Below, in pieces: positions 1 through 59,182 of a stretch of 64,000 nucleotides of DNA (positions are counted from its first letter, which is position 1; each line of letters starts with the position of its first letter). The stretch spans positions 1-64,000 of the forward strand of contig JAVKPJ010000043.1 in assembly GCA_033032175.1 (NCBI GenBank), given 5' to 3'. The notes under the pieces are model-generated. The model saw only the letters and a program-made list of their open reading frames with translations, was not told the DNA's origin and did no database searches. This DNA comes from Saturnia japonica (Eukaryota > Arthropoda > Insecta > Lepidoptera > Saturniidae). Position numbers and translations under genes: made by a program.

Positions 1-407
1 TGGTACCCTCCTGGGGTAATTCTATTGAACGTGTACACTTCATCTTCCTTATCTCCTCCTCCAGTTCGCAGTGCGCCTGCCAGGACCGATATGAAAACAA
101 CCAGTCCCGCCAGCCGCTCTCCGGAATTGGGCCCTTGGGACTCAACTTGAGCCCTCATCGGCCCCAACCCGGTACTGAGTGCGCTGCTCACACGCCACAC
201 CCAGGAGTGTTTATCGGCTCTCCAGCCTAGATCCGTAGTGTTCAGCGTGACAGGGTCACCTCGAGAAGGATGTGGCTCTTCACCACGCACTACGGTCTTG
301 AGGTGGCAGGCTAAGGCTCTCTCCAGAAGGAAAGTGCTATATTGCGCCTGTGGGTCCACCCCCTGCAGATCAGAGATACAAGTACCTCCTCACGCCTGCT
401 CGACCCC
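1..407 (-). mobile_element. E0: 5' end of a telomeric non-LTR element, cut by window edge
   Basis: Only the 5' leader and the edge of the first ORF1 module are inside the window. The right end, GGGGTCGAGC when read on the - strand, is the same terminus as in E5, E6, D1 and E10 (called leader type A here), and it joins the telomere repeat directly at 408. The first bases repeat the coding module that carries LPQEGT in the ORF1 of related copies. Which family the rest belongs to cannot be told. Confidence 0.85.
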
Positions 408-506: not shown

Positions 507-528
507 TTTTTTTTTTTTTTTTTTTTTT

Positions 529-3800: not shown

Positions 3801-4008
3801 TGTTAGCGAAGGGTGGGGAGCCAGTGGCGGGCTGGGAAATAATGGCAACCGAGCCATCTCGATCCCCCGCCCAGTTATCTCGGGGCGGCACAAAGTATGG
3901 CTCGGCTATCACGGCGACGCTGATTGACCACTGTGCCATGCTTTGGACTAGCAGGTCCTGCGCACTGGCACAGTGGTTCAGATTCCCTTGGAGAATACGA
4001 ATAGACAT
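855..4008 (-). pseudogene. E1 ORF2: endonuclease/reverse transcriptase, frameshifted
   Basis: ORF2 of an R1-clade element, whose product would nick the telomere repeat and copy its RNA onto the nick. The C-terminal 681 codons (855-2900) are open. They carry the RT motifs SAYRPIVLLDE, QFGFRRGRST, VSLDIANAFN, GVPQGSVLGP and CYADDTLV, then a CHHC...H...C knuckle near the end. The endonuclease half (QGNLNH, AEPYFVP, GDFNAKS, SIVDISF) is spread over other frames. Breaks lie near 2945, 3095 and 3590; the first two are 1-nt losses compared with E2. The start ATG at 4006-4008 overlaps the TAATAATG stop-start motif. Not functional as read. Confidence 0.9.
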
Positions 4009-4013
4009 TATTA
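4006..4013 (-). promoter_or_regulatory. E1 ORF1/ORF2 stop-start motif TAATAATG
   Basis: The ORF1 stop TAA is followed by a second in-frame TAA that overlaps the ORF2 ATG by one base. UAAUG stop-start coupling is established for ORF2 translation in SART1. The same octamer occurs in E6 and E10. Confidence 0.7.
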
Positions 4014-6180: not shown

Positions 6181-6597
6181 TTTTGTTCCCACGATTGTGG
6201 GGGAAGTAACAGTCCACCCAGGCAGTGCCCCCTGTGCCTGGGTAAGCCTAGCGTAACCCGTCAAGAGAGTCGGCCGGTTCTCTGACGGGGGTCGCACTCG
6301 TGACTGGTCTCCCACCAGCCACGCATCCCCGGGTGCGCCGCCGCTTGGGATTAGGGTAATTTTTTATAGAGGTTTTCTTCCTCGCGGTCCAGGCGGTTAA
6401 GCCAAGACCCTCGGTCCCATACGAAGCCGCGAGACGTGACCACGACACTCCGATGGGATTACGAGATCGACGGTGGCAAGCCGGACAACGTGTCCAACCT
6501 GTCCGCCCGACGGCAGAGTGAGTGCACGCCGAGCCCGCCAACACGCCACGTCTTCGAACCCTCTAAAGAGAAGATGAACGGTAAACGTCGCCCCCCC

Positions 6598-6675
6598 GTC
6601 AGGTATTAGCCGTCGGCCGAGAAGCGGCCGCCGTTGCCCGGGATGCACCACGCGGAGGTTCCTGACTCGCACCCC
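6598..6675 (-). ncRNA. HDV-like self-cleaving ribozyme at E1 5' end
   Basis: Read on the - strand from 6675. P1 is GGGGUGC with GCAUCCC, and P2 is GUCAGG with CCUGAC. P3 is ACC/GGU closing the 7-nt loop UCCGCGU. GGGCAAC follows P1', then P4 CGGCCG/CGGCCG with loop CUUCU, then a joining strand with GGCUAAUA that supplies the CUAA catalytic motif. This is the nested pseudoknot order of HDV ribozymes. Cleavage would fall exactly at the telomere junction. Fold drawn by eye. Confidence 0.8.
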
Positions 6676-9671: not shown

Positions 9672-9977
9672 TCACGAGGTTTTATTCCTCGGTGATTTTT
9701 TAAGGAGGTTTTCTTCCTCCGGGTTCGGGCCCACACGTCCACCAGAACCCGACGCCTGGTGATTTTTTAACGAGGTTTTCTTCCTCCGGGTTCGGGCCCA
9801 CACGTCCACCAGAACCCGACGCCTGGTGATTTTTTAACGAGGTTGTCTTCCTCGGTGATTTTTTAACGAGGTTTTCTTCCTCCAGGCTCCGGCCCCGCAG
9901 GACCAGAACCCCGCCCTTGTGATTTTTTAAAGAGGTTGTCTTCCTCTCAATTTTTTAGCGAGGTTTTCTTCCTCACG
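9672..9977 (-). repeat. N1 array of seven short hairpins
   Basis: Seven units of the form xGAGG-7 nt-CCTCx, mostly separated by ATTTTTTA. Several closing pairs covary: CGAGG/CCTCG, GGAGG/CCTCC and AGAGG/CCTCT. Two longer units also carry a GGGTTCGGGCC...GAACCC segment. The unit number differs between copies of N (7, 6, 4, 6). Confidence 0.75.
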
Positions 9978-10283: not shown

Positions 10284-10368
10284 GCGTTCCTCTTGGCTTC
10301 ACCGTGGGGGACCAAGCCACGGTTACTAAGCCCCCCCGCCACGACAAGGCGGGAACCCTCCGGGGGGG
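10284..10368 (-). ncRNA. Candidate HDV-like ribozyme at N1 5' end
   Basis: P1 pairs the 5'-terminal C7 with G7. P2 is GGGUUCC with GGAACGC (one mismatch here; perfect GGAACCC in N2-N4). P3 is GCC/GGC closing a 7-nt loop UUGUCGU. P4 is ACCGUGG/CCACGGU, and the joining strand has AGCCAAGA, matching GGCUAAUA of E1 in position. The strand after P1' is CUUAGUA, not GGGCAAC, which is the weakest point of the fit. Confidence 0.6.
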
Positions 10369-10462: not shown

Positions 10463-10481
10463 TTTTTTTTTTTTTTTTTTT

Positions 10482-10571
10482 ACATGGGGAAATCCTACAT
10501 TGGATACACCTCCCGCCGTCGGGGGACAGCGAGAGGGTTATGCCGGACTCCTACCGGCTAAAACCCCATGG
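10482..10571 (-). ncRNA. Conserved 3'-terminal RNA fold, family B version
   Basis: The outer helix is CATGGGG (10483-10489) with CCCCATG (10564-10570), an A-T for G-C exchange relative to family A. The inner hairpin is CCGG/CCGG around actccta, and CCTC pairs with GAGG. E4 and E11 repeat it. Confidence 0.7.
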
Positions 10572-10810
10572 CCGCATCAGCGCGTATGTGAAACAGGGTC
10601 GCGGGAAAGGCGGTAAGCAAACGACCGCTACCCTGTTCACGCGCTCGGGTCACCCGCAGGTGGTGAAAGCAGGGACCCTCATCTCGTGGAGAGACTGATT
10701 CTCTCTCAGGCTTCCTATATATGAAGCAGCGGCTTCCCGTGCTTCTACGTCACGGTTCTCCTCTTCAAGGCAACAGACACCCCCGTGTCCATTGCCAGGA
10801 GATCTAATCA

Positions 10811-13800
10811 TCAAGGAGGCCTATCATGATGATAGCCTCCGGCTCTTCTTCTTCTGCCGCGCCCAGTTCTTCCGCGGCGAACTACGGATGTTACAGGCGC
10901 TCTTTCCCGCTCTCGCTCTGCATCTTCCTTCTTAAGCATGACACACTCACTGAAAGAGACGACGGCGTTCCATTCACTCTCTCCGTTAACCATGGAGCGA
11001 ACTACAGCTGGTAGTGAGAGATCATCGCCAATAGCTCGTATGAGCTCCCTCCTTTCATCATCCCATGCTGAACACTCCTCCACTGTGTGGAAAGCGGTAT
11101 CCGTCTGGCTGTCGCAGTGGTGACACTGAGAGGTCGTCTCTTTACCAGCGATTTGGTGCAGGTACTTGCCAAAGCAACCGTGGCTAGTGAGCACCTGTAC
11201 CAACCGAAACGTGAGCGACCCATAACTGCGATCGATCCAATCCCTGAAAACAGGTCGGATAGCCTCTATAATTGCAAGACCAGCACTAGGTGAAATCAAG
11301 GCCTCCGACCAACGCAATAACACAGCCTCACGAAGGTGCTTTCTCTGCGATTCTTTTTCCATGAGAGCAGTTCTTACTCCACGAGCAACTCTCTCAGCAG
11401 TCCACATGTAGAGTTCAGCATGGGAGCGTGCGACTAGTTCCCAAGGAGCAGAGCTCGCCAACAGGCATGCCGCCTCAAAAGATACTGTACGGTATCCGCG
11501 GATCACCCTGACAGCCATTATACGCTGTAACCTTCGTAAAATGGCAGCACTGCCTGGCGTTAGGGCATTATGCCACACCGGGGCTCCGTACAAAACCATG
11601 GACTGCACAACTCCCATGTACAAAGAACGAACTCCGACACCAGCACCACCAAGGTTAGGCAAAAGGCTTGATAGTGCAGAAGCACATCTCATAACTCTGG
11701 GGGCTAATTGCTGGAAGTGATTATCAAATCTCCAACGGGCGTCTAGAATTAGTCCCAAATACTTTAACGAGGAGCCAACATGTATACGAACTCCACCAAC
11801 AGTTATGTGCATGTCAGGAGGCAGTGCTTTGCGGGGCCCATGGAAACAAACTGCTTCTGTTTTATCCAGAGCTACTTCGAGCCCAAGCAACCGGATCCTC
11901 CCGACAACCTGAGCCACACTCGCCGTAGCCAACATGAGGGCATCCCGAACGGAATCGCCACGCGCCGTCACCAAAGTATCATCTGCATAACAAGTAATAG
12001 AAACACCGGGTAGAAGGGCACACCGCAACACCCAATCGTAACCGATGTTCCACAAGAGCGGGCCAAGGACTGACCCCTGTGGAACACCGCACGATAGCTC
12101 CCTCTGGTGGGTGCAAGCGTCCTGCCCAACGCATGTAACCTGCCTATCCATTAAGTAGGACCCAATAACTCTATATAAATAATGAGGCACTCTGTGGTAC
12201 TTTAGAGCTTCCCTGATGCATTCCCAGGGTAAGCTGTTAAAAGCGTTGGCTATGTCTAACGACACAGCTAACAGCACTCCACCCTGGGAAATCGCTTCAT
12301 CCGAGAGGGTCTTTACGCGCAAAATCGCGTCAACTGTCGATCGACCCTCTCGGAAACCGAACTGCGTTGATGAGAGATCTGGCCCCATGCAAACCAAATG
12401 TGTAATGAGGCGCCGTGACATAATTCGCTCAAAAATCTTGCCGACCTCATCCAGGAGAACAATAGGCCGGTACGCCGACGGAGACTCCGCCGGACGTCCC
12501 TGTTTCCTCAATAGGACGAGGCGACCTATCTTCCACTGAGGTGGAAACTGACCCGACACCAGACAAGCACTGAAGAGCCGCCTAAGCCGATTCCCCAGAG
12601 CACCCGCCGCAAGAGCCCAGGTACGACCTGGAATTCCATCAGGCCCCGGAGAAGTATTCTTCGCCCGAAGCCGTCTTACAGCCGTATCTAATTCATCCTC
12701 CGAGACTGGAGGAATGCTCTCATAATCGTCCTGATCATTAGTGGCCGACAATGCCACAAACGGAGGTGTATACTCCAACCTCTGTGGAAAAAGCTGAGAC
12801 AGAATGGAATCCAAGAGCTGCGGCTGAAGACTCTGCGTGATCGGAGGAGCCCAGGGGCGCAAGAAACCCAACACCATACGGTAGGGGCGTCCCCACGGAT
12901 CTCCGTCCAAAGTCTCCAGCAGGTTTTCCCTTGCCCGAGCCTTCGCCTTTTTAATGGCTATTTGAAGATCTTTTCTAGCCTCTTTGTAATACGTATACAA
13001 TTGCTCTTCAACAGCTGTATCCCGTCCCAGGCGCAATCTCCGATGTCTAGTATATTGGCGTCTAGTGGCCACACACCTAGTTCGCAGTCGAGCGATTTCA
13101 CCAGACCACCAATAAACTCGTCGCTTAGGTGGATCAGATCTGACCCGGGGCATAGCAGCATCAGAAATATGCGTCATAGTATCCCGAAACCAATGAGCTT
13201 CCTCTGTGACGTTCACTGGCCCTTCCGGTGGTGGGATCCAGGACGCAACTATAGCAGCCTCTATCAGCAAATCCTCATTGAGTCGCTTAATGGCCCACCT
13301 AGTTGTTAACGAAGTTTGCCTACCAACAACTGGGATGGTGGGCAAAACAGAGACGTCAAACCGGACATATAAATGATCCGATAGAGATTCCGTACCCTCC
13401 TCAACTCTCCAGTTTTGAATTCGTCGATCGAGAACAGGAGAAGCAAAGGTTATATCAACAATGGAACCACCCCGTTGCCGAATGCAAGTATTTATAGTCC
13501 CACGATTGACGACTGCAAGACCAATTTCTAAAGCCCATTCCTCTAAGGCTCTGCCACGCATATCAGTGACAGGAGACCCCCAAGCTGAAGACTTAGCATT
13601 AAAGTCCCCAGCCACTAACATGGGACAGGGCAATGTTCGTCTAATGAAGGATCCTAAACTGTCCAGGAACCTCTCAAATTCCAGGAATGGCTTATTCGGA
13701 GAAATGTATACCCCTATCAAGACAAGTTCTCCCCATTGCGCAGCAACGAACCCTACATCACTCATTAAAATGGTCAAAACTGGAGACCCAACAGTATTAG

Positions 13801-13975
13801 CAGATACAATGGCTACTGTGTGCGTTACATCCGCAACCCAATTGCTCCGAGAAGGAACAAAATAAGGTTCAGCGACAATCATTACTTGGATCGACCATTC
13901 AGCCATGGTATGAACCAGAAGATCCTGAGCCACGGCTGAATGGTTTATATTTGCCTGTAAAAACTTATGAGCCAT
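10811..13975 (-). CDS. E3 ORF2: endonuclease/reverse transcriptase, intact
   Basis: 1054 residues, the usual size for R1-clade ORF2. Residues 1-205 are an AP-type endonuclease with QANINHS, AEPY (E36), GDFNAKS (123-129), SIVDITF (171-177) and SDH (199-201). A basic linker follows (RRQYTRHRRLR, about 305). The RT spans roughly 440-750: SAYRPIVLLDE, QFGFREGRST, SLDIANAF (Asp 574), GVPQGSVLGP, and YADD (663-666) as the catalytic pair. A CHHC...H...C knuckle lies near 950-970. All expected catalytic residues are present. The ATG lies 5 nt after the ORF1 stop (TAA ATAAT ATG), so the UAAUG overlap seen in other copies is absent. It is expected to nick (CCTAA)n and prime cDNA there. Confidence 0.95.
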   Translation of the reverse strand: MAHKFLQANINHSAVAQDLLVHTMAEWSIQVMIVAEPYFVPSRSNWVADVTHTVAIVSANTVGSPVLTILMSDVGFVAAQWGELVLIGVYISPNKPFLEFERFLDSLGSFIRRTLPCPMLVAGDFNAKSSAWGSPVTDMRGRALEEWALEIGLAVVNRGTINTCIRQRGGSIVDITFASPVLDRRIQNWRVEEGTESLSDHLYVRFDVSVLPTIPVVGRQTSLTTRWAIKRLNEDLLIEAAIVASWIPPPEGPVNVTEEAHWFRDTMTHISDAAMPRVRSDPPKRRVYWWSGEIARLRTRCVATRRQYTRHRRLRLGRDTAVEEQLYTYYKEARKDLQIAIKKAKARARENLLETLDGDPWGRPYRMVLGFLRPWAPPITQSLQPQLLDSILSQLFPQRLEYTPPFVALSATNDQDDYESIPPVSEDELDTAVRRLRAKNTSPGPDGIPGRTWALAAGALGNRLRRLFSACLVSGQFPPQWKIGRLVLLRKQGRPAESPSAYRPIVLLDEVGKIFERIMSRRLITHLVCMGPDLSSTQFGFREGRSTVDAILRVKTLSDEAISQGGVLLAVSLDIANAFNSLPWECIREALKYHRVPHYLYRVIGSYLMDRQVTCVGQDACTHQRELSCGVPQGSVLGPLLWNIGYDWVLRCALLPGVSITCYADDTLVTARGDSVRDALMLATASVAQVVGRIRLLGLEVALDKTEAVCFHGPRKALPPDMHITVGGVRIHVGSSLKYLGLILDARWRFDNHFQQLAPRVMRCASALSSLLPNLGGAGVGVRSLYMGVVQSMVLYGAPVWHNALTPGSAAILRRLQRIMAVRVIRGYRTVSFEAACLLASSAPWELVARSHAELYMWTAERVARGVRTALMEKESQRKHLREAVLLRWSEALISPSAGLAIIEAIRPVFRDWIDRSYGSLTFRLVQVLTSHGCFGKYLHQIAGKETTSQCHHCDSQTDTAFHTVEECSAWDDERRELIRAIGDDLSLPAVVRSMVNGESEWNAVVSFSECVMLKKEDAERERERAPVTSVVRRGRTGRGRRRRAGGYHHDRPP

Positions 13976-13980
13976 ATTAT

Positions 13981-16113
13981 TTACTGCTCTACTATTACCT
14001 GCTCTTCCTCTACCCTTACTTGGGAACTGGGAGCATCCTTAACTACCGATCTATTATTGATCTGTATTTTCCTGGCTGCTTTACCCTGATTTTTATTTTT
14101 AGGCACACACGATTTGCTACCCAGGCGATGATCTGCCGGTCGCTTTGCATCAGCGCATACCGAGCAATGCGGAATGGCCGAACAATCAGATGCCTTATGA
14201 CCTACCATACCGCAACGAAAACACTGCTCACTACGATCGATTTGCGCAGTACATTTTTGCTTAATGTGGCCTACTTCCAAGCAACGGAAACATCTAGCTA
14301 CCTTAGGCTGCAACAATGTTACTTGCACAGCCACCCAACCCAAAAGGAGCCTGCGTTCCTGTGCCACCTTTTTGGCAGCCGCCACCGGGCAGCGCACCCA
14401 CACAGTGTTAGTCCCATAGGGAGCTCGTCTCACTTCTCCTACCTTCACCTGACTCACATGGCAGTCCCCTTTCGCTGCTATAGCAGCCGCCACCTCTTCT
14501 TTGGTCGAAGCATCGTCTAAACCTGTGACGCGGAGCTCCACACATTTCATGGGCCTCGACACCTGGACCAATCCATCACCCACTGTTTCTTTAAATATCG
14601 TCGACAGCCTCTCAGCTAGTAAATCTGCCTTCTCAGCGCTAGCTACACCAGGCACTTCCAGCTTGCGAGCTCCTGAAGCCGTCTCCTTGACCTTTATAAA
14701 GGCGATATCAAAACCAGTCATGTCTATCTTCTCTTTGGCTACCGATATTAACTTTCTATAGTCAATACCTTTTTCCTTTGCCTCTGGTTGGAGAGTCAGA
14801 ACAATAGCCGAAGACCGAGGGACAACTAGTTTGGCCGGTAATATTTTTCCCTTCGGTGCTTGTAGTGCTGCTAAGCGCTTTTTAGCACCTCGCGCCATTA
14901 CGGTCGACCATGTTTCCTGCGCCACAGGCTCCGGCTGAGAAGGAACTTGCTGCAAAAGAGAGGCCTTTGCATCCTGCGACGCCAGTAATTTCTTTTTGCC
15001 CTTGCCAATCCTTTTACGGGCTGGAACAGCAGAACCATTAGAGCCAGATGGATCAGCAGAACCGAGAGGGCCAGGTGGTCGTGTCTCTGACCTCCCTGTC
15101 ATATCCAGCGCTTGAGTAGGAGCATTCAAGAGTCTTCTTTCTACCGACTCTATGCAGGATCTCATCTCCTGCATCATATTGTGCATGACATTATCCAGCA
15201 TTTCCTTGGTAACCACCGATGGCACCTCCTTCTGAGACCTTATTCCTCGCTGCCGTAATGGGGAAACTTCACTTCTTGCGCTGACCGTGACAGGTGAAAT
15301 ATTGGCTGCTGAGACAATTCCCCCTTGTCGGGCCAACTGCAGCTCTACTCTCAACTCAACCATTTCCTTGCGAAGTTCCTCAATTTCTGCCGCTTGTTTG
15401 GCCTCACTAGCCTTTAACCTATCACAGGAGTCTTGGAGCTTTCTTAGCTCTTCAGAAGCATTTCTGTTGGCCAAAATAGTTGCTCTATCCACAATAGATG
15501 CAGCTGCCTCCTTGAGAGCATGCTGGAAGGTGCCCTTCAAGTTCTTTGATTTTTGCACGACTCCGAGAATAACATCGACGTCGGCAAGAATTCCTTTCTG
15601 AAGATCCGCCGCAAGTTGCTCCTCTGAAATGGGAGCATTGAGTTTTACGGCAACTCGTTCACACCTTGCCCTCGAGGCAATCTCAGCCATCTCATGCTCT
15701 GCTCTGAGACGCAGCTCCTCTTCTCCGAGGCGTATAAGTTCTGCCTTGGCTTTTGCCAGGCCCCTGTATTGTCCAGTGGTTACAGGACGGCCTCTGCCTA
15801 TCTTTTTAGATGTAGGAGTACACTGGCCGGTCACTCCAACTTCGGGTTCCGAGTCAGACGATGAATCCACCGGCAGCTGTAGACGTTCTCCATCTCTACG
15901 CAAACGAACCTCAGACAAGGGCACATCGCTGCCATCGCTGGCTGTCACCATAGCATCTCTGCTGTGTTCACTGGCGTCCGAGGGGCTCTTTAGTGTCGGA
16001 TTTTCTAAGCCATACACCACGGGCCAATTTGCAGTAGCATCAGTACCAGTCCCACTTTTTCCATCATTTTTCTTTCCTTTTTTATTTTTATTTAAATGGT
16101 TTGAACTCTTCAT
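13981..16113 (-). CDS. E3 ORF1: gag-like protein with three zinc knuckles, intact
   Basis: About 710 residues from the ATG at 16111-16113; the frame is open a few codons upstream but only through a GTG. An acidic Ser/Asp-rich N-terminus is followed by an AT-hook-like GRGRPVTTG. Next come a long charged, probably coiled-coil region with KSKNLKGTFQHALKEAAAS, a Lys-rich hinge, and an RRM-like stretch starting SSAIVLTLQPEA with a second segment LRVTGLDD. The C-terminal knuckles are CFRCLEVGHIKQKC, CFRCGMVGHKASDC and a third beginning CSVCADAKRPADH. By analogy with TRAS/SART ORF1 it binds element RNA and directs it to telomeres. It stands just upstream of ORF2 on a shared message. Confidence 0.93.
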   Translation of the reverse strand: MKSSNHLNKNKKGKKNDGKSGTGTDATANWPVVYGLENPTLKSPSDASEHSRDAMVTASDGSDVPLSEVRLRRDGERLQLPVDSSSDSEPEVGVTGQCTPTSKKIGRGRPVTTGQYRGLAKAKAELIRLGEEELRLRAEHEMAEIASRARCERVAVKLNAPISEEQLAADLQKGILADVDVILGVVQKSKNLKGTFQHALKEAAASIVDRATILANRNASEELRKLQDSCDRLKASEAKQAAEIEELRKEMVELRVELQLARQGGIVSAANISPVTVSARSEVSPLRQRGIRSQKEVPSVVTKEMLDNVMHNMMQEMRSCIESVERRLLNAPTQALDMTGRSETRPPGPLGSADPSGSNGSAVPARKRIGKGKKKLLASQDAKASLLQQVPSQPEPVAQETWSTVMARGAKKRLAALQAPKGKILPAKLVVPRSSAIVLTLQPEAKEKGIDYRKLISVAKEKIDMTGFDIAFIKVKETASGARKLEVPGVASAEKADLLAERLSTIFKETVGDGLVQVSRPMKCVELRVTGLDDASTKEEVAAAIAAKGDCHVSQVKVGEVRRAPYGTNTVWVRCPVAAAKKVAQERRLLLGWVAVQVTLLQPKVARCFRCLEVGHIKQKCTAQIDRSEQCFRCGMVGHKASDCSAIPHCSVCADAKRPADHRLGSKSCVPKNKNQGKAARKIQINNRSVVKDAPSSQVRVEEEQVIVEQ

Positions 16114-16535
16114 TTCTAATCCCACGAGAATGGGGGAAACAACCGGTCCACCCAGGCAGTGCCCCCTGTGCCTGGGTAAGCCTAGCGTAACCCGTTAGAG
16201 AGTCGGCCGGTTCTCTGACGGGGGTCGCACTCGTGACTGGTCTCCCACCAGCCACGCATCCCCTCGCGGTGCGCCGCCGCTTGGGATTAGGGTAATTTTT
16301 TATAGAGGTTTTCTTCCTCGCGGTCCAGGCGGTGAAGCCAAGACCCTCGGTCCCATACGAAGCCGCGAGACGTGACCACGACACTCCGATGGGATTACGA
16401 GATCGACGGCGACAAGCCGAACAGTTGTCAGGTCTGTCCGCCCGACGGCAGTGTGAGTACTCGCCGAGCCCGCCAACACACCACGTTCTTCGACCCCTCT
16501 GACTAGCAGAGGAACGGTAAACGTAGCCCCCCCCC

Positions 16536-16613
16536 GTCAGGTATTAGCCGTCGGCCGTGAAGCGGCCGCCGTTGCCCGGGATGCACCACGCGGAGGTTCC
16601 TGACTCGCACCCC
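16536..16613 (-). ncRNA. HDV-like self-cleaving ribozyme at E3 5' end
   Basis: Same elements as in E1: P1 GGGGUGC/GCAUCCC with one G-U, P2 GUCAGG/CCUGAC, P3 ACC/GGU with loop UCCGCGU, GGGCAAC, P4 CGGCCG/CGGCCG with loop CUUCA, and GGCUAAUA before P2'. The 78 nt start at the first base of the element. Confidence 0.82.
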
Positions 16614-16627: not shown

Positions 16628-17042
16628 TTTTTTTTTTTTTTTTTTTTTACATGGGGAAATCCTACATTGGATACACCTCCCGCCGTCGGGGGACAGCGAG
16701 AGGGTTATGCCGGACTCCTACCGGCTAAAACCCCATGGCCGCATCGGCGCGTGTGTGAACATGGGCACGGGATTCGCGCAAGCATTCTCCGCGACCCTGT
16801 CCACGCGCTTGGGTCACCCGTAGATGTTAAATAGCGGGGACCATCGTCACTAAAAGATGAAATTACCTTCTTTCCTCACGCTTCTCAGTTGAAGCGGCGG
16901 CAAACCGTGCTTCCTCGTCACGGGCCTTCCTTACTCAGCAACGAACGCCCCCGCGTCCGCTACCTGAAGGCATGTTAGGGTGGCACTCGAAGGGGCGGAT
17001 TTGCACCGCCTCTCTGTTGACGTCTTACCCTTACTCGACGGA

Positions 17043-20000
17043 TCATGGGGCATGAGGTTCCCTTTCTCTAAACCTTTCTGCTTCCTCCTTTTGATGAAGG
17101 ACGCTCTCGCAGAAAGAAGTAACCGCATGCCAAGAACCCTCACTAGCGACCATAGCTTGAATTAAAGCCGGCAGGGAGAGATCATTGCCTATCACTGCAG
17201 CGAGTTCGTTGCGCTGAAGTGCCCATGCTGGACAAACTTCCACCGTGTGATCCACAGTATCGATATCACACCCATTACAATGATGACATTCAGATGTCAG
17301 TTCTCTACCCGCTATCTGATGCAGGTATTCACCAAAGCAGCCATGGCCGGTCAATACCTGAACCAGCCGATAGGTGAGAAACCCATGTCCTCTATCCATC
17401 CATTCTGAAAATACTGGGCGAATTGCCTCGATTGTTCGGAGACCAGCGGTAGGCAACGAAAGCTTCTCCCTCCACATATCCGAAATCACCGTCCCCCAGT
17501 AAGCTCTCTGCGTTTCTATCTCCCTAAGTAGGGTGGTCACTCCTCGCACGCTCTTTTCAGCACGCCACGTGTACATTGCCGCGAGTGCATAAGCCACCAG
17601 TTCCCACGGTGGTGAGCTAGCAAGTAGGCAAGACGCCTCATATGATACAGTACGGTATCCTCGTATCACCCTGATAGCCATCATCCTATGCAATCTCCGC
17701 AAGACCGCAGAATTGTTGGCAGTCAGGGCAACTCGCCACACTGGGGCTCCATACATGACCATAGACCTAACCACCCCCATATACAGAGAGCGGCAAGTAG
17801 CACCTGCCCCTCCAATATTGGGTAAAAGACCCGCCAAAGCCGAAGCACTTCTCATAGCCTTAGGAGCTAATTGTCGAAAATGTTCACAAAAAGACCACTT
17901 GCTGTCTAAAACGATGCCTAAATATTTCATTTTAGACCCAATTTCAATCCGTATACCATCGATAATCAGATTGCTTCCAGCGGGAGGTGCCCTACGTGGA
18001 CCATGAAAACACATTGCTTCGGTTTTATGAAGGGCTACCTCAAGCCCCATCAGCCGAATTCTTTCTACAATCTGCTCCACACTTGCAGTCACCAAATGTA
18101 TAGCATCCCTCAAAGTATTTCCATGAGCCACGACGAGCGTGTCATCCGCATAACAAGTCACCGCAGCTCCCGGAAGGAGAAAGCCCCGCAGCACCCAGTC
18201 ATACCCGATGTTCCACAGGAGCGGGCCAAGAACTGATCCCTGTGGAACACCACATGACATCTCCCTTTGGTGAGTGCTACCGTCTTGACCAACGCATGTG
18301 ACATGCCTGCCCTCTAAATAGGACCCGATAATCCTACACAGATATTTAGGCACATTATGAAGCCTTAGCGCTTCGTTGATGCATTCCCAGGGTAGGCTGT
18401 TAAAGGCATTGGCTATATCCAACGATACAGCCAATAGCACTCCACCCTGAGAAACCGCTACCTCTGAGAGAGTCTTAACGCGTAAAATAGCGTCAATCGT
18501 TGACCAACCCTCCCGGAAGCCAAACTGCACTGGAGAAAGGTCGGGCCCCACATCTTTCAAATGCCTAATTAGGCGCCGCGAAATGACACGCTCAAACAGC
18601 TTTCCAGCCTCATCAAGAAGAACGATTGGTCGATAAGCAGATGGAGAATCAACCGGTCGGTTCTGTTTCCGCAACAGAATGAGGCGACCCACCTTCCACT
18701 GAGGTGGAAACTGGCCCATCTGTAAACAAGCAGTAAAAAGACGCCTAAGCCTATCCCCCAGAGCACCTAACGCCAAAACCCAAACACGACCTAGAATCCC
18801 ATCGGGCCCCGGCGCAGTGTTTCTTGCTCGGAGCCGCCTCACAGCCACGCCCAGTTCAGCCTCAGTGACTGAGGGTACCACGTCAACGATGTCACGTCCA
18901 GTGTCAATCGAAGAAGCCGTAAAAGGAGGCGAATGCCCAGCCCTCACTGGGAAGAGGGAAGACAAAATGGACTCTAACAAGAGCGGCTGAATGCTCAGTG
19001 CAATTGGGGGAGCCCTTAGGCGCAAGGAACCCAACACCAACCGATAAGGGCGTCCCCACGGGTCTCTGTCCAAAGTCCTCAGCAAATCTTCCCTTGCCTG
19101 CACCTTTGCTTTCCTTATGGAAACTTGGAGAGTCTTTTTAGCTTCTCTATAAGCGTCATAATATAGCACCTCAAGAGTAGCATTTCGTCCTCGGCGCAAC
19201 CTACGGTGCCGAGCATACTGGCGCCTCGCGGCCACACACATTGTCCGCAATCTTGCAATCTCGCCAGACCACCAATACACTTGCCGCCTCGACTGCTGAG
19301 ATTGGACCCGCGGCATAGCGGCATCAGAGATACGCGTCATTGTGTCACGAAACCAACTGGCCTCCTCAACGATATTCACCGGTCCATTCGGTGGTGGGAC
19401 CCAGGATGCAACAATCGAGGCCTCAACCAATAAGTCCAGCTTCAACCTCTTAACTGCCCATCGAGGCGACGACGAGACATTCGCGATGGGGACCGTGGAA
19501 GATGGAGAGACATGGACGTCGAATCTAATATATAAATGATCCGACAGAGATTCCACGTCTTCAACCACTCTCCAGTCCCGAATACGTCGAGCGACATCTG
19601 GTGTTGCAAACGTAAGATCAACAATAGATCCGCCCTGCTGCCGAATACAAGTGTTCACTGATCCGCGGTTGACAATGGAAAGACCTGTCTCTAGAGCCCA
19701 TTCCTGTAGAATCTCGCCGCGCATATCGCTGGCTGGAGATCCCCACGCCACTGATTTCGCATTAAAATCCCCTGCCATAAGTATGGGACAAGGCAAAGTT
19801 CGCAATATAAAGGTCGCAAGACGATCCAAAAAAGCTTCAAACTCAGCCAACGACTTGTTTGGAGAGAAATAAACACCCAGCAGGACAATCGCCCCCCATT
19901 TAACTGCAACGAAGCCAGAATCTTTTAATATTGCAGTCATTGTGGGGGATCCCACATTGCTTGTAGAAATTATAGCCACAGTTTTTGTTACGTCACCTAC

Positions 20001-20138
20001 CCAATTGTCCCTGAGAGGTACAAAATAAGGTTCCGCTACAACCGCTATTTGTATAGACCACTCAGCCATAGTTTGAACCAAAAGGTCTTGGGCTACAGCC
20101 GAGTGATTAATATTTGTCTGCAAAAACCTATAACCCAT
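17043..20138 (-). CDS. E4 ORF2: endonuclease/reverse transcriptase, open
   Basis: 1031 residues. The endonuclease has QTNINHS, AEPYFVP, GDFNAKS, SIVDLTF and SDH. The RT has SAYRPIVLLDE, VSLDIANAFN, GVPQGSVLGP and CYADDTLV. The C-terminal knuckle is CHHCNGCDIDTVDHTVEVC, with two or so extra residues in its spacer. The C-terminus is about 20 residues shorter than in E3 and E11 and lacks their Arg-rich tail. The motif FREGRST of other copies reads FREGWST here through a single CGG to TGG change (18504-18506), which may weaken the enzyme. The ATG overlaps an in-frame TAA as TAATG, two codons after the ORF1 stop, consistent with stop-start coupling. Confidence 0.94.
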   Translation of the reverse strand: MGYRFLQTNINHSAVAQDLLVQTMAEWSIQIAVVAEPYFVPLRDNWVGDVTKTVAIISTSNVGSPTMTAILKDSGFVAVKWGAIVLLGVYFSPNKSLAEFEAFLDRLATFILRTLPCPILMAGDFNAKSVAWGSPASDMRGEILQEWALETGLSIVNRGSVNTCIRQQGGSIVDLTFATPDVARRIRDWRVVEDVESLSDHLYIRFDVHVSPSSTVPIANVSSSPRWAVKRLKLDLLVEASIVASWVPPPNGPVNIVEEASWFRDTMTRISDAAMPRVQSQQSRRQVYWWSGEIARLRTMCVAARRQYARHRRLRRGRNATLEVLYYDAYREAKKTLQVSIRKAKVQAREDLLRTLDRDPWGRPYRLVLGSLRLRAPPIALSIQPLLLESILSSLFPVRAGHSPPFTASSIDTGRDIVDVVPSVTEAELGVAVRRLRARNTAPGPDGILGRVWVLALGALGDRLRRLFTACLQMGQFPPQWKVGRLILLRKQNRPVDSPSAYRPIVLLDEAGKLFERVISRRLIRHLKDVGPDLSPVQFGFREGWSTIDAILRVKTLSEVAVSQGGVLLAVSLDIANAFNSLPWECINEALRLHNVPKYLCRIIGSYLEGRHVTCVGQDGSTHQREMSCGVPQGSVLGPLLWNIGYDWVLRGFLLPGAAVTCYADDTLVVAHGNTLRDAIHLVTASVEQIVERIRLMGLEVALHKTEAMCFHGPRRAPPAGSNLIIDGIRIEIGSKMKYLGIVLDSKWSFCEHFRQLAPKAMRSASALAGLLPNIGGAGATCRSLYMGVVRSMVMYGAPVWRVALTANNSAVLRRLHRMMAIRVIRGYRTVSYEASCLLASSPPWELVAYALAAMYTWRAEKSVRGVTTLLREIETQRAYWGTVISDMWREKLSLPTAGLRTIEAIRPVFSEWMDRGHGFLTYRLVQVLTGHGCFGEYLHQIAGRELTSECHHCNGCDIDTVDHTVEVCPAWALQRNELAAVIGNDLSLPALIQAMVASEGSWHAVTSFCESVLHQKEEAERFREREPHAP

Positions 20139-20146
20139 TATAATTA
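20136..20146 (-). promoter_or_regulatory. E4 ORF1/ORF2 stop-start region ending in TAATG
   Basis: The order is TAA TTA TAATG: ORF1 stop, one codon, then a second in-frame TAA overlapping the ORF2 ATG. It keeps the UAAUG signature known from SART1. Confidence 0.6.
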
Positions 20147-22294
20147 TTGCATAGCCCCCTTTCCTTTGGACCTCTCAGTGGTACCAGGTGCAGTCTTAGC
20201 TGCATAATCTTTAGGCCGCTTAGAAATCATGGCCGCCTTGCCCTTTTTCGTGACAGAGAGAGCACAGGAACTACCTCCTAAACGATGATCCGCCTGTCGC
20301 TTGGCCTCAGCACAAACTGTACAATGTGGAGCAGCTGAGCAATTCACAGCCTTATGACCTACCATACCACAGCGAAAACACTGCTGACTGCGGTCAATCT
20401 CTGCTTTACATCGCTGCTTGATGTGACCCGTTTCTAAGCAACGGTAACACCTAGACGCTTTAGGCTTCAACAGCCTGACCTGTGTTGCTACCCAACCTAT
20501 CATCAATCTATTTTCTTGAGTAAGCTTCTTAGCCGCCGCCACTGGACAACGAACCCACACAGTACTAGTACCATATGGAGCTCGGCGTATTTCGCCCACT
20601 CTAACCTGACTGACGGAGCAGTTTCCCTTTGACGCGATCACATTAGCAATCTCTTCACTTGTGACAGAGTCGTCCAGTCCCAGCACACGCAGGTCAGCAC
20701 ATTTGGCAGGCCTGGTTACCTCAACTATTCCTTCTCCGATAGATTCAATAAATGCAGCTCTCAGCTTCTCAGCCAGAAGATCTGCCTTTTCGCAACTGGT
20801 GACCCCAGGTACCTCCAATTTACGGGCACCGGAAGCCGTCTCCTTAACTTTGATATAAGGTATACCCAGAGTGGACACATCTACTTTATTTTTTGCCAGT
20901 GTGATCACCTTCTGATAGTTAATCCCTTTATCTTCAGCTCCTGGTCTCAAAGTCAACACGATTGCTGAAGTTCGCGGGACCACAAGTTTAGCCTGAGCCA
21001 CTTTCGATTGCAGTTCCTTCTTTTGCATGTCAGCTTTTTTAGCACCTCTCTTTGTTACCGCTGACCAATCTTCTGCCACTATTGCAGCCGGTTGAGAAGG
21101 AGCCGGTTGCAAACGCGCTGCCTCCGCAGCCCTGGCCGCCAAAGACTTCTTCTTTTTGCGGCTTTTCCCAATTGTCGCAGCTGTTACTGCAGAATTAGAT
21201 CCAAGCTTCTCAGCCATATCAATTTCTACCACCTCTCGAACAGAATTCAGGCCTGCAACCAACGGCAGACGCAAAGGTCTCCCTTCCAGCACATCCATTA
21301 ATGCATTCATTTTAGAGTGCATCTCATTTATTGCGTGATCAAACATATCTTTGGTAACGACTGATGAATCCACTTTTTGGGACCCTGTTTTACGCGGCCG
21401 CAACAAAGGAAGAACATCTTGTCGCGGCGAACTTTCTAGAGCAGGTGCGGCCAAACTAGTAACCACAGGGGTGGAATTGACAGCAACAACAGGCTGCAAT
21501 TGGCGAGCCATATGCAAGTCCGCTCGCAACTCCGCCATCTCCTTGCAGAGACGATCTATCTCTGCCCCCTGCTTTGCCTCAGTAGACTTTAGGGCTTCAT
21601 ACGCGTCCTGAAGCTTTTTAAATTCCTCAGAAGCAGTCCTGTTTGCCAAAGTAGCAGCCCTTTCCGTAATAGAAGCTGCTGCCTCTTTTAGAGCACGCTG
21701 AAATGTTCCCTTCAAATTTCGGGATTTCTTTACGACGTCGAGAACAATCTCAACGTCCTCTTGGATTCCCTTTCTTAAATCCATTACTAACTCCTCGTCA
21801 GTAGCAGGAATAATGGACCTCCTAACCAAACGGTCCCGCCTCGCTTGCGATGCTATTGCCGCCACCTCTTCCTCCGCCTTAAGGTAGAGCTCTTCCTCCC
21901 TAAGGCGAATGAGTTTTGCCTTCGCTTTTGCCAAACCCCTGAATTGTCCTGTAGTTGGGGGGCGTCCTCTGCCCCTTTTTTTTACTGAAGATGCAGGGGT
22001 ACATTGTCCTGTTACACCGGCATCCCCATCCGAATCTGAAGAGGAATGGGAAACTTGCTGAAATCCCCCCCTCCTCAGACTACGTACCTTAGCAAGAGGA
22101 ACATCACTCCCCTCACTAGCTGTAGCCATAGCTCCTCTACTTCCCTCACTTTCTTCTGAATGACCCTCCAAAGGTGTACTGCCCTTAAGACATACAGGAG
22201 GACAGACAGATGTAGAAGTAGCAGCACTCTCCACATCCAGACGTACTTTATCATCTCCGGTTTTCAATTTTTTATTAGAATTTGAACACTTCAT
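20144..22294 (-). CDS. E4 ORF1: gag-like protein with three zinc knuckles, intact
   Basis: About 716 residues from the ATG at 22292-22294. The upstream GTG extension is disregarded because GTGGGAACAAAAATG is leader sequence shared with E1. Order of parts: Ser-rich acidic N-terminus (SSSDSDGDAG), AT-hook-like KKRGRGRPPTTG, a coiled-coil region with KSRNLKGTFQRALKEAAAS, a Lys-rich stretch (KSRKKKKS), and the RRM-like segments SAIVLTLRPGA and LRVLGLDDS. The knuckles are CYRCLETGHIKQRC, CFRCGMVGHKAVNC and a third beginning CTVCAEAKRQADH. Expected to package element RNA and act with ORF2 at the telomere. Confidence 0.93.
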   Translation of the reverse strand: MKCSNSNKKLKTGDDKVRLDVESAATSTSVCPPVCLKGSTPLEGHSEESEGSRGAMATASEGSDVPLAKVRSLRRGGFQQVSHSSSDSDGDAGVTGQCTPASSVKKRGRGRPPTTGQFRGLAKAKAKLIRLREEELYLKAEEEVAAIASQARRDRLVRRSIIPATDEELVMDLRKGIQEDVEIVLDVVKKSRNLKGTFQRALKEAAASITERAATLANRTASEEFKKLQDAYEALKSTEAKQGAEIDRLCKEMAELRADLHMARQLQPVVAVNSTPVVTSLAAPALESSPRQDVLPLLRPRKTGSQKVDSSVVTKDMFDHAINEMHSKMNALMDVLEGRPLRLPLVAGLNSVREVVEIDMAEKLGSNSAVTAATIGKSRKKKKSLAARAAEAARLQPAPSQPAAIVAEDWSAVTKRGAKKADMQKKELQSKVAQAKLVVPRTSAIVLTLRPGAEDKGINYQKVITLAKNKVDVSTLGIPYIKVKETASGARKLEVPGVTSCEKADLLAEKLRAAFIESIGEGIVEVTRPAKCADLRVLGLDDSVTSEEIANVIASKGNCSVSQVRVGEIRRAPYGTSTVWVRCPVAAAKKLTQENRLMIGWVATQVRLLKPKASRCYRCLETGHIKQRCKAEIDRSQQCFRCGMVGHKAVNCSAAPHCTVCAEAKRQADHRLGGSSCALSVTKKGKAAMISKRPKDYAAKTAPGTTERSKGKGAMQ

Positions 22295-22696
22295 TTTTGT
22301 TCCCACGAAAATGGCGGAAATATACGGTCCACCCAGGCAGTGCCCCCTGTGCCTGGGTAAGCCTACCTTAACCCGTCAAGAGAGTCGGCCGGTTCTCTGA
22401 CGGGGGTTGCACTAGAGACTGAACATCCCATCAGCCATGCATCCTCTCGCGGTGCACCGCCGCTTAGGATTCGGGGTAATTTTTTTATAGAGGTTTTCTT
22501 CCTCGCAGTCCGGGCGGTTAAGCCAAGACCCTCGGTCCCATACGAAGCCGCGAGACGTGACCACGACACTCCGATGGGATTACGAGATCGACGGTCTGTC
22601 CGCCCGACGGCAGTGTGAGTACTCGCCGAGCCCGCCAACACACCACGTTCTTCGACCCCTCTAACTAGCAGAGGGACGGTAAACGTAGCCCCCCTC

Positions 22697-22774
22697 GTCA
22701 GGTATTCGCCGTCGGCCGTGAAGCGGCCGCCGTTGCCCGGGATGCACCACGCGGAGGTTCCTGACTCGCACCCC
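22697..22774 (-). ncRNA. HDV-like self-cleaving ribozyme at E4 5' end
   Basis: As in E3, but the strand before P2' reads GGCGAAUA. Its CGAA is the same base order as in the HDV genomic ribozyme, so the N of CNRA varies while C, R and A are kept. Confidence 0.82.
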
Positions 22775-22798: not shown

Positions 22799-23684
22799 TT
22801 TTTTTTTTTTTTTTTTTTTTTAGTTTGGGAAAACCCATCATGGGTACCAGCCCGCCGCGGAGGACAGTAGACTGGTTATGTGGGACTGTACCCACTAAAA
22901 ACCCAAACATCGCCTCCGGAGCGCTTGGCGTCGGGGGCACAGGAATCGCTTGCGCATTACCTCTGTGTCCACCGACAAGCGCTGTCCCCCCGAAGAGAGG
23001 CTCTCCCCACTGGGACGCCCATCACCGACCGCAGCCCCAGCCTCCGTTCAATTTTTCACGAGGTTTTATTCCTCGGTGATTTTTAAGGAGGTTTTCTTCC
23101 TCCGGGTTCAGGCCCACACGTCCACCAGAACCCGACGCCTGGTGATTTTTTAACGAGGTTGTCTTCCTCGGTAATTTTTTAACGAGGTTTTCTTCCTCCA
23201 GGCTCCGGCCCCGCAGGACCAGAACCCCGCCCTTGTGATTTTTTAAAGAGGTTGTCTTCCTCTCAATTTTTTAGCGAGGTTTTCTTCCTCTCGGTCGCAG
23301 AGGACAGGGAGAGCGGCACAACGAAACACCGACACGCCTCTTCCCCTGCGACCCCACCGCGTCCGCCATCTTTTAGCGACGGTGGCGACCCCGTCGAGGC
23401 CGCGGAAGGTAGGGTGAGCGGCACAACGAAACACCGACACACCTCTCCCGCCGCGGCCTGTCTCCTTCAGCCGCGGTGCCTCCCATACGACACCGCGGCT
23501 CGCCTCAGCGGCGGTGGCGCCCATACACCACCGCAACCTACTGTTGGCCGCTTCGTCTGGGCTCTTATGCCCAAAGCCCTGACTAGCAGCCTCGCCTGTG
23601 GGTTCCTCTTGGCTTCACCGTGGGGGACCAAGCCACGGTTACTAAGCCCCCCCGCCACGACAAGGCGGGAACCCTCCGGGGGGG
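22799..23684 (-). mobile_element. N2: short non-autonomous telomeric retroelement
   Basis: 886 bp, poly(A) at 22799-22821. Same termini and order as N1; differences are chiefly in the hairpin array (23057-23292, six units in place of seven). No gag or RT sequence. The 97-codon - strand frame at 23243-23536 is identical to the one in N1 but consists of two copies of a GRGVSVFRCAA repeat that reflects the DNA duplication, so it is probably not a gene. Confidence 0.88.
23600..23684 (-). ncRNA. Candidate HDV-like ribozyme at N2 5' end
   Basis: P1 C7/G7, perfect P2 GGGUUCC/GGAACCC, P3 GCC/GGC with 7-nt loop, P4 ACCGUGG/CCACGGU, and AGCCAAGA before P2'. Confidence 0.62.
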
Positions 23685-29761: not shown

Positions 29762-30129
29762 CACCTTTACCTCCTCCTCCAGTTCGCAGTGCGCCAGCCG
29801 GGATCGGTATGAAGACAACCACTCCCGCCAGCCGCTCCCGGAATTGGGCCCTTGGGACTCAACTTGAGCCCTCATCGGCCCCAACCCGGTACTGAGTGCG
29901 CTGCTCACACGCCACACCCAGGAGTGTTTATCGGCTCTCCAGCCTAGATCCGTAGTGTTCAGCGAGACAGGGTCACCTCGAGAAGGATGTGGCTCTTCAC
30001 CACGCACTACGGTCTTGAGGTGGCAGGCTAAGGCTCTCTCCGAAAGGAAAGAGCTGTATTGCGCCTGTGGGTCCACCCCCTGCAGATCAGAGATACAAGT
30101 ACCTCATCACGCCTGCTCGACCCCGGGGG

Positions 30130-30148: not shown

Positions 30149-30933
30149 TTTTTTTTTTTTTTTTTTCAGTTTGGGAAAACCCATCATGGGTACCCGCCCG
30201 GCGCGGAGGACAGCAGACGGGTTATGTGGGACTGTACCCACTAAAAACCCAAACATCGCCTCCGAGCGCTTGGCGTCGGGGGCACAGGAATCGCTTGCGC
30301 ATTACCTCTGTGCCCACCGACAAGCGCTGCCCCCCCGAAGAGAGGCTCTCCCCACTGGGACGCCCATCACCGACCGCAGCCCCAGCCTCCGTTCAATTTT
30401 TTCACGAGGTTTTATTCCTCGGTGATTTTTTAAGGAGGTTTTCTTCCTCCGGGTTCAGGCCACACGTCCACCAGAACCCGACGCCTGGTGATTTTTTAAA
30501 GAGGTTGTCTTCCTCTCAATTTTTTAGCGAGGTTTTCTTCCTCACGGTCGCAGAGGACAGGGAGAGCGGCACAACGAAACACCGACACGCCTCTTCCCCT
30601 GCGGACCACCGCGTCCGCCATTTTTAGCGACGGTGGCGACCCCGTCGAGGCCGCGGAAGGTAGGGTGAGCGCCAAACGAAACACCGACACACTCTCCCGC
30701 CGCGGCCTGTCTCCTTCAGCCGCGGTGCCTCCCATACGACACCGCGGCTCGCCTCAGCGGCGGTGGCGCCCATACACCACCGCAACCTACTGTTGGCCGC
30801 TTCGTCTGGGCTCTTATGCCCAAAGCCCTGACTAGCAGCCTCGCCTGTGGGTTCCTCTTGGCTTCACCGTGGGGGACCAAGCCACGGTTACTAAGCCCCC
30901 CCGCCACGACAAGGCGGGAACCCTCCGGGAGGG
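30149..30933 (-). mobile_element. N3: short non-autonomous telomeric retroelement
   Basis: 785 bp, poly(A) at 30149-30166. Same ends as N1 but only four hairpin units (30402-30543) and several small losses in the central part. No coding potential seen beyond the 63-codon frame common to all N copies (30716-30907). Confidence 0.87.
30849..30933 (-). ncRNA. Candidate HDV-like ribozyme at N3 5' end
   Basis: As N2, except the 5' strand of P1 is CCCUCCC, whose U still pairs with G of G7. P2 is perfect. Confidence 0.6.
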
Positions 30934-30942: not shown

Positions 30943-30966
30943 TTTTTTTTTTTTTTTTTTTTTTTT

Positions 30967-33618: not shown

Positions 33619-33694
33619 GTCAGGTATCAGCCGCCGACCAGCCTGGTCGACGTTGCCCGGGGTGCACCACGAGGAGGTTCCTGACACGCACCCC
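33619..33694 (-). ncRNA. HDV-like self-cleaving ribozyme at G1 5' end
   Basis: P1 is GGGGUGC/GCACCCC, now fully Watson-Crick. P2 is UGUCAGG/CCUGACA, and P3 is ACC/GGU with loop UCCUCGU. GGGCAAC follows, then P4 GUCGACCA/UGGUCGGC, wholly different in sequence from E1/E3/E4 but still paired. GGCUGAUA with CUGA fits CNRA. The P1 and P4 changes relative to E3 are compensatory, which is the best support for the whole series. Confidence 0.85.
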
Positions 33695-33698
33695 AGGG

Positions 33699-39942: not shown

Positions 39943-40306
39943 ACTTCCTTACTCCTCTTCCAGTTCGCAGTACGCCTGCCGGGCCGGTATGAAAACCACC
40001 AGTCCCGCCAGACGCTGTCCGGAAATGGGCCCTTGGGACTCAACTTGAGCCCTCATCGGCCCCAACCCGGTACTGAGTGCGCTGCTCACACGCCACACCC
40101 AGGAGTATTTATCGGCTCTCCAGCCTAGATCCGTAGTGTTCAGCGTGACAGGGTCACCTCGAGAAGGATGTGGTTCTTTCACCACGCACTACGGTCTTGA
40201 GGTGGCAGGCTAAGGCTCTCTCCGAAAGGAAAGAGCTGTATTGCGCCTGTGAGTCCACCCCCTGCAGATCAGAGATACAAGTACCTCATCACGCCTGCTC
40301 GACCCC

Positions 40307-45195: not shown

Positions 45196-45560
45196 TTCTC
45201 CATTTTTCTCCACGTCCAGTTCGCAGTACGCCTGCCGGGATCAGTAAGAAACAACCGATCCCGCCAGCCGCTACCCGGAACTGGACCCTTGGGACTCAAA
45301 GTGAGTCCTCATCGGCCCCAGCCCGGTACTGGGTGTGCTGCTCACACGCCACACCCAGGAGTATTTATCGGCTCTCCAGCCTAGATCCGTAGTGTTCAGC
45401 GAGACAGGGTCACCTCGAGAAGGATGTGGCTCTTCACCACGCACTACGGTCTTGAGGTGGCAGGCTAGGCTCTCTCAAAAAGGAAAGAGCTGTATTACGC
45501 CTGTGGGTCCACCCCCTGCAGATCAGAGATACAAGTATCTCATCACGCCTGCTCGACCCC

Positions 45561-52550: not shown

Positions 52551-52572
52551 AACCTAACCTAACCTAACCTAA

Positions 52573-58819: not shown

Positions 58820-59182
58820 ACTTCCTTACTCCTCTTCCAGTTCGCAGTACGCCTGCCGGGCCGGTATGAAAACCACCAGTCCCGCCAGCCGCTGTCCGGA
58901 AATGGGCCCTTGGGACTCAACTTGAGCCCTCATCGGCCCCAACCCGGTACTGAGTGCGCTGCTCACACGCCACACCCAGGAGTATTTATCGGCTCTCCAG
59001 CCTAGATCCGTAGTGTTCAGCGTGACAGGGTCACCTCGAGAAGGATGTGGTTCTTCACCACGCACTACGGTCTTGAGGTGGCAGGCTAAGGCTATCTCCG
59101 AAAGGAAAGAGCTGTATTGCGCCTGTGGGTCCACCCCCTGCAGATCAGAGATACAAGTACCTCATCACGCCTGCTCGACCCC

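Follow-up and report, generated by a model that had tools for sequence, protein, structure and literature searches.

Four stretches of the Saturnia japonica DNA analyzed here (64,000 nt in all, hereafter the window) are very probably HDV-like self-cleaving ribozymes, which form the first ~78 nt of SART-type, TTAGG-specific non-LTR elements and would drive a cycle of RNA release. The four elements, E1, E3, E4 and G1, share the nested double pseudoknot P1-P2-P3-P1'-P4-P2' at their extreme 5' ends (Table 1). Diverged relatives in the same genome keep the pairing through two-sided changes, and dispersed copies have exact 5' ends. Two other kinds of 5' end in the window, the A and C types, are candidates for less familiar versions of the fold.

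Table 1. Features of the window discussed in the text, in window coordinates
Feature	Positions	Strand	Basis
E3 HDV-like ribozyme (element 10464-16613)	16536..16613	-	Rfam E-value scan, core descriptor, alignment A2
E3 P1; P2	16607-16613/16578-16584; 16599-16604/16536-16541	-	
E3 P3; L3; P4	16595-16597/16585-16587; 16588-16594; 16563-16570/16550-16557	-	
E3 putative catalytic C; predicted cut	16547; 5' of base 16613	-	cut by homology to HDV
E3 ORF2, 1054 aa, endonuclease + reverse transcriptase	10811..13975	-	domain scan
E3 ORF1, 714 aa, CCHC zinc knuckle	13981..16125	-	domain scan
E1 HDV-like ribozyme (element 508-6675)	6598..6675	-	Rfam scan, descriptor, alignment
E4 HDV-like ribozyme (element 16629-22774)	22697..22774	-	Rfam scan, descriptor, alignment
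G1 HDV-like ribozyme (element 30944-33694)	33619..33694	-	Rfam scan, descriptor, alignment
CCCT separating the telomere repeat from G1, end of GGTTAGGTTCCCT	33695..33698	-	13-nt repeat
A1 candidate ribozyme; element runs off window start	233..407	-	descriptor
A8 candidate ribozyme	29950..30124	-	descriptor
A11 candidate ribozyme	40131..40306	-	descriptor, shuffles
A13 candidate ribozyme	45387..45560	-	descriptor
A19 candidate ribozyme	59008..59182	-	descriptor
C4 candidate ribozyme, mismatch in P2' (GGAACGC)	10284..10368	-	missed by both descriptors
C7 candidate ribozyme, short non-autonomous element	23600..23684	-	descriptor, shuffles
C9 candidate ribozyme, P1 CCCTCCC	30849..30933	-	descriptor
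C16 candidate ribozyme, six C in P1	49632..49715	-	descriptor

An array of SART-type elements

Elements follow one another head to tail along the minus strand of the window, with short TTAGG tracts between them and poly(A) tails that occur on that strand only. The junctions read TTAGGTT/element...poly(A)/GGTTAGG, which matches the SART insertion rule and orientation as given in the accessible part of the SART1Bm paper (PMC7265360). The SART layout of two ORFs, an AP-like endonuclease plus RT, a poly(A) tail and a length of about 6-7 kb was found in E3, E4 and A19, and a Pfam domain scan showed that the long ORFs of the array encode an endonuclease-RT protein and a CCHC ORF1. The sole ORF of at least 150 aa on the minus strand of G1 had no Pfam domain. 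Insertion site, orientation, poly(A) tail and ORFs all mark the elements as telomere retrotransposons of the SART type. The name SART was absent from the 120 protein matches listed, most of which carried no name at all; the TRAS1 endonuclease was a distant match, and the named species among the matches listed were mostly moths and butterflies, plus ants, a bee and one record labelled bacterium. A pattern search of the window and of 200 kb of contig C1 from the same genome (one pattern; at least five matches) revealed no element 5' end lying in TRAS orientation. Viral contigs held no relatives by pattern or by protein, and contigs of other genomes gave one distant match (24% identity; L001), which was set aside.

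Identity among the elements is patchy. By blastn, E1 is 92% identical to E3 and 87% to E4 over ~500 nt at the 5' end, E3 and E4 are 74% identical over the first 1.3 kb, and the remainder of these three elements aligns at 65-75% or not at all; the last ~110 nt of E1 match E3 or E4 at 83%. E3 and G1 share only their first 78 nt (82.5%) and last 109 nt (77%), and G1 aligns, from its position 129 onwards, with the A type starting near position 180 (77-81%). Given this patchwork, the ribozyme looks either exchanged between elements or held by strong selection. A11 and A19 are 99% identical over 6.6 kb, which indicates recent copying.

Two adjoining copies at 49731-51137 and 51153-52551 are 97% alike and have nearly the same 5' truncation point, so they are probably a tandem duplication. 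Within C1:1-200000 (L010-L029), series of junctions recur ~25.0 kb apart (114843/139853, 117319/142329, 131537/156552) and 16.4 kb apart (43324/59710, 52156/68541), as segmental duplications within the array. Separately, the Rfam family mir-3389 matches nine places on the plus strand, antisense to element ORFs (12032-12098, 2058, 8243, 18195, 25258, 35283, 47106, 54141 and 60749), one of them above the gathering score. For eight of these places the ORF has an RT domain, and 47106 lies in an ORF outside the domain scan. The annotated mir-3389 microRNA may be a fragment of a SART-type retrotransposon.

HDV-like folds at four element 5' ends

We scanned all 64 kb, both strands, against every Rfam family in an unguided E-value search up to E 10. 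RF02682 and RF00094 were found at the four E/G sites on the minus strand and nowhere else. Each RF02682 match begins at the first element base (38.0 bits for G1, 32.5 for E1, 32.5 for E3 and 30.8 for E4); the RF00094 scores were 37.6 (G1), 29.1 (E3), 29.0 (E1) and 28.9 (E4). All four fall below the gathering scores of 44 and 50, respectively, and a scan of the window at gathering scores returned mir-3389 and no ribozyme. Two copies elsewhere in the genome, found among 16 further sources, exceed the RF02682 gathering score (44.4 and 44.2). The covariance-model search suggested by the first-pass annotation thus points to HDV families at exactly the expected places, with window scores under the curated cut-offs and two relatives passing that of RF02682.

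Numbering alignment A2 (rows E1, E3, E4 and G1) from the first element base, P1 occupies columns 1-7/30-36, P2 10-15/73-78 and P3 17-19/27-29, the last closed by a 7-nt L3; GGGCAAC follows P1' at 37-43, P4 pairs 44-51 with 57-64, and a CNRA motif stands at 67-70 (CTAA in E1 and E3, CGAA in E4, CTGA in G1). The P4 loop of G1 is two bases shorter, which places its later parts two bases earlier. P2 is GTCAGG/CCTGAC, and since the structure lines of RF02682 and RF00094 leave P2 unpaired, this helix is evidence beyond the model matches. The HDV active site comprises U20, C24 and G25 of L3, P1.1 and the catalytic C within CNRA. All of these bases are present in all four rows. The first-pass annotation had described this arrangement, and its coordinates, its sequences, the HDV order of helices within the first 76-78 bases, the 7-bp P1, 3-bp P3 and 7-nt L3, and the two flanking motifs were all borne out. 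Near P3 and next to P4, the pseudoknot-free folds of E3 and G1 do not reproduce the native nested helices, so misfolding of these two RNAs is possible.

A core descriptor (P1 of 7 bp, P3, TCC in L3, GG after P1', P2 of 6 bp, and CNRA) matched at four starts on the minus strand (33694, 22774, 16613 and 6675), at none on the plus strand, and at none in 36 dinucleotide-shuffled windows of which one strand was searched. With the core bases left out, the descriptor gave 27 starts on the minus strand and 0 on the plus strand, against a shuffled mean of 3.1 and a maximum of 7. Any such topology anchored at the element 5' end arose in 2 of 34,941 shuffles of E3 and 1 of 37,261 of G1. A model built from the four window copies (R1) had its best other match at 46724-46806 (17.6 bits), inside element X14.

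Covariation among E/G copies

Within the window, P4 shows two two-sided changes between the E copies and G1, and P1 a one-sided one, a level reached in 28 of 500 shuffles. Two earlier claims about these changes needed revision. The P1 difference (GCATCCC to GCACCCC) had been called compensatory and is a one-sided change from G.U to G-C. P4 had been described as replaced with its pairing kept; the two two-sided changes there are real, and the E copies carry a G.A mismatch at pair 45-63.

Contig C1:1-200000 holds more diverged E/G copies. Alignment A5 took 18 of the 25 E/G copies from the window and C1, one per distinct sequence or nearly so; two pattern matches (window 47209 and C1 6391) were judged not to be ribozymes and left out. 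The 18 copies (17 distinct) showed 22 cells with two-sided change against 6.5 in shuffles that ignore kinship, none of 500 being as high. A6 extended this to 35 copies in 27 distinct rows, including 17 of 20 dispersed copies (L057, L065 and L066 depart from the motif and were dropped). Here 98.0% of cells are paired, compared with 31.4-41.4% after the 3' partners have been shifted by 1-3 columns. Against shuffles that ignore relatedness, A6 has 27 two-sided-change cells (8.2 expected; 0/500 as high) and five pairs with two-sided change (2.6 expected; 13/500 as high). Further pair types showed no excess in A6 (13 against 13.8 in shuffles; 500/500 as high).

The five pairs fall in P1 (two), P2 (one) and P4 (two). 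P1 changes from U-A to C-G and, in two copies (L010:124-204 and L029:2394-2474), from G-C to A-U; P2 changes from G-C to A-U in three distinct copies. T20, C21, C22, C24, G25, G37, G38 and C67 are invariant across the 35 rows, and P3 and P1.1 are uninformative because neither ever varies. Compensatory two-sided changes are thus seen in P1, in the P2 pseudoknot and in P4. Together with the Rfam scan and the descriptor and its shuffles, covariation that includes P2 supports the proposed HDV-like identity.

It is very improbable that these folds are dead relics or chance. Some copies are indeed damaged (C4 in P2', and L057, L065 and L066). Against this reading stand the 36 empty shuffled windows, the two-sided changes that keep pairs, and the A11/A19 pair, which speaks for recent copying.

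Exact 5' ends and flanking duplications

A 28-base ribozyme pattern had 670 matches in the genome (332 + 338). The flank before GGGG varies from copy to copy in all 20 dispersed E/G copies fetched, and the motif is kept through P2' in 17 of them. Since the pattern contained GGGG, the 5' strand of P1, the presence of P1 is not independent here and the informative result is the change of flank. For the A type the anchor was placed inside J1/2, away from P1 (343 genome matches, 20 copies fetched). GGGGTCGAG stood before the anchor in 17 of 20 copies, with one change in L032, L040 and L047, and no sequence further upstream was shared among the 20 copies, except in L046, which carries a partial copy of the 5' end. 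Half of these copies (L030, L031, L032, L036, L038-L042 and L044) had no TTAGG tract or poly(A) in the 16 bases printed. By eye, and uncounted, AGG seems to lie about 10-17 bases upstream of the dispersed non-telomeric E/G copies (L050-L069), which would fit an endonuclease that uses telomere-like sites.

The first-pass annotation had put P1 flush with the telomere in all four elements. G1 departs from this, having four bases, CCCT, between TTAGGTT and P1. These are the end of GGTTAGGTTCCCT, which recurs directly behind the G1 poly(A), where the next element, C9, begins, and we therefore read them as part of a target-site duplication. Upstream of A8, GGTTAGGTTCCCCC likewise recurs behind the A8 poly(A) (14-nt repeat; 30125-30129), U12 has a 14-nt repeat behind its poly(A) (42381-42385), and a 14-nt GGTTGGGGTCGAGC is readable at the junctions of X14 (47700-47709). 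The X14 line of the duplication search itself was not used because the matched place lies 7.3 kb away and is not the element's own tail. The bases between the telomere and G1, A8, U12 and X14 are likely target-site duplications that include the first bases of the next element.

Plain telomere lies upstream of 24 of the 48 copies in the window and C1, where the duplication test is uninformative. Among the other 24, six have a repeat of 13-15 nt that finishes at the first base of the element and turns up again after its poly(A), and 18 have no such duplication; a stricter earlier form of the test found the repeat in two copies. Untemplated addition of CCCT-type bases was considered and dropped, the repeat being found downstream in 6 of 24 elements. 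The change of flank and the duplications together indicate that the RNA-derived part of each copy begins at the predicted cut.

Copies starting at one exact base would also be expected from an internal promoter that starts transcription at the first element base, with the HDV-like fold kept for translation start or protein binding and cutting a minor activity. High transcriptional activity is described in the accessible part of the SART1Bm paper, and a text search counts no "ribozyme" in its full text (PMC7265360). A promoter alone has no need of TCC in L3, GG after P1', CNRA, or a covarying P1 and P2, and we think this explanation improbable beside self-cleavage.

Candidate ribozymes in A and C elements

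The window listing has 19 element 5' ends: four E/G, five A, four C and six others (T3, U12, X14, T15, T17 and T18). T3 and T17 align inside E1 and T18 aligns to T17, so these three are truncated; U12, X14 and T15 are, in our reading, truncated elements as well. Taking the six as truncated, we give roughly even chances to the broader proposition that all intact 5' ends of the array (13 of the 19) are HDV-like ribozymes of at least three architectures, with a P2-P3 hairpin and no P4 in A, a P1.1 pair changed from C-G to G-C in C, and modules swapped between diverged elements.

The A type begins GGGGTCGAGC... and has five copies in the window. Its P1 is GGGGTCG/TGACCCT and its P2 CCGTAGTG/CACTACGG, L3 (TTCTCGA) lies ~140 nt in, and CTGA precedes P2'. 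A large paired arm fills the long J1/2, and a hairpin stands between P2 and P3. The 11 nt that separate P1' from P2' leave no space for a P4. The C elements (784-953 nt; four in the window) are built differently. C7 has P1 CCCCCCC/GGGGGGG, P2 GGGTTCC/GGAACCC, L3 TTGTCGT, P4 ACCGTGG/CCACGGT and CCAA; in this type L3 position 22 is G and the first base after P1' is C, instead of C and G. Three of the C elements are also internally repetitive, at 9691-9974, 23052-23292 and 49082-49323, with tandem units of about 29/67/96 bases built around TTTTTTAACGAGGTT.

A second descriptor (TNNNCG in L3, a P1.1 pair 22-38, and CNRA), written after A and C had been seen, gave 21 rows on the minus strand and 0 on the plus strand of the window. 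A1, A8, A11, A13, A19 and G1 were each matched at their first base. The remaining 15 rows are the cores of C7, C9 and C16 in several P1 registers, which include the predicted first C for C7 and C9 and start one and two bases upstream for C16, with others up to ~95 bases upstream. It misses E1, E3 and E4, whose P2 has 6 pairs, and C4, whose P2' is damaged. Shuffled strands averaged 0.18 starts, with a maximum of 4 (488 shuffles). Anchored at the 5' end, the topology arose in 6 of 476,143 shuffles of A11, 2 of 702,943 of C7 and 2 of 670,949 of G1. By this post hoc descriptor, the A and C types have the HDV topology with active-site bases, C4 excepted.

A competing reading, to which we give somewhat less than even weight, is that the A and C 5' ends are ordinary stem-loops, in which the G-run of C7 pairs with CCCCC of the P4 loop, and GGGGT of A11 with ACCTC. 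For C7 the pseudoknot-free MFE is -38.6, compared with -28.4 for the nested helices named above and a further -9.4 for P2 by itself; for A11 it is -69.8, and the corresponding figures are -38.2 and -9.6, the first of them too weak, most of the J1/2 arm being left unpaired in the named fold. No Rfam HDV match was found for the A type or C7. Model R1 found no A 5' end and gave the C elements 12.4-12.8 bits in a wrong register, displaced 28-29 bases into the element, and so lends the C type no support. Copies of each type hardly differ, so covariation is lacking. P1 of the C type is also of low complexity, and its G-run can pair with C/T-rich stretches up to ~95 bases upstream. Against stem-loops, the anchored topology of A11 and C7 is about as rare in shuffles as that of G1, and apart from the shifted P1 registers of C cores the second descriptor matches only element 5' ends in the window. 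We regard the A and C forms as candidate HDV-like ribozymes, likely but unproven.

Discussion

HDV-like ribozymes are already on record for this group of elements. The abstract of Ruminski et al. (2011, J Biol Chem 286:41286) is said to agree on telomere-specific SART ribozymes. Telomere-specific SART appears among the retrotransposons with HDV-like ribozymes in the accessible part of a later paper, which cites Ruminski 2011 (PMC11620745). The remark in the first-pass annotation that none had been described for such elements was therefore wrong, and, SART ribozymes having been published, the E/G copies are an addition to a known kind, with the same fold, 5'-end place and element group, the last by name, as far as the source available to us goes. 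What is new here, and less certain, is that two types of 5' end absent from the first-pass annotation, A and C, fit the HDV topology when P1 is placed at the first bases of the element. A search of titles and abstracts, with most subscription papers outside its coverage, found no description of A- or C-like forms.

R2 elements offer another close comparison. Their ribozymes, in the accessible part of PMC3774820, have a P1 of 6-7 bp, a P2 of at least 5 bp, a P4 that is sometimes too short to form, and a spacing between P1 and P1' of up to over 700 nt; the short P4 and the wide spacing are precedents for the A and C forms. The order of helices is the same as in E/G, with CCUCCUCGUGG in L3/P3 of G1. 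L3/P3 of G1 is CCTCCTCGTGG, an 11-mer that is called the most conserved in R2Dm and that a zebra finch R2 shares unchanged (PMC5035012, as available in part). R2 lies in 28S genes and cuts upstream, in rRNA, in most species tested (PMC3774820, same part), whereas P1 of E/G starts with the element's own first base. The same source describes R2 SIDEs (short internally deleted elements), which are non-autonomous and combine a 5' ribozyme with a 3' end recognised by an autonomous partner. C elements have a similar layout; unlike SIDEs, only about the last 100 nt of C7 align by blastn to E3 and G1, and nothing aligns to A11. J1/2 domains, a further precedent, speed cutting, and drz-Agam-2-1 has a P1.2 domain in J1/2, according to the part of PMC4908430 available. 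The A type likewise has a large paired arm between P1 and P2, but differs from drz-Agam-2-1 in its hairpin between P2 and P3 and in having almost no P4.

We envisage the following cycle. A transcript that crosses telomere repeats, or that emerges from the element upstream, would continue into the next one in the head-to-tail row, where the ribozyme would fold and cut just before the first element base. The released RNA would start exactly at GGGG with a 5'-OH; it may be translated, and would also serve as template for target-primed reverse transcription. Reverse transcription ending at the cut would give precise full-length 5' ends.

Covariation within a single genome supports the release of telomere retrotransposons from TTAGG-containing read-through RNA by self-cleavage, and many element RNAs could come from one long transcript of such an array. 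Should the A and C forms prove to cleave, they would widen the definition of the HDV ribozyme and show how profile searches miss such forms.
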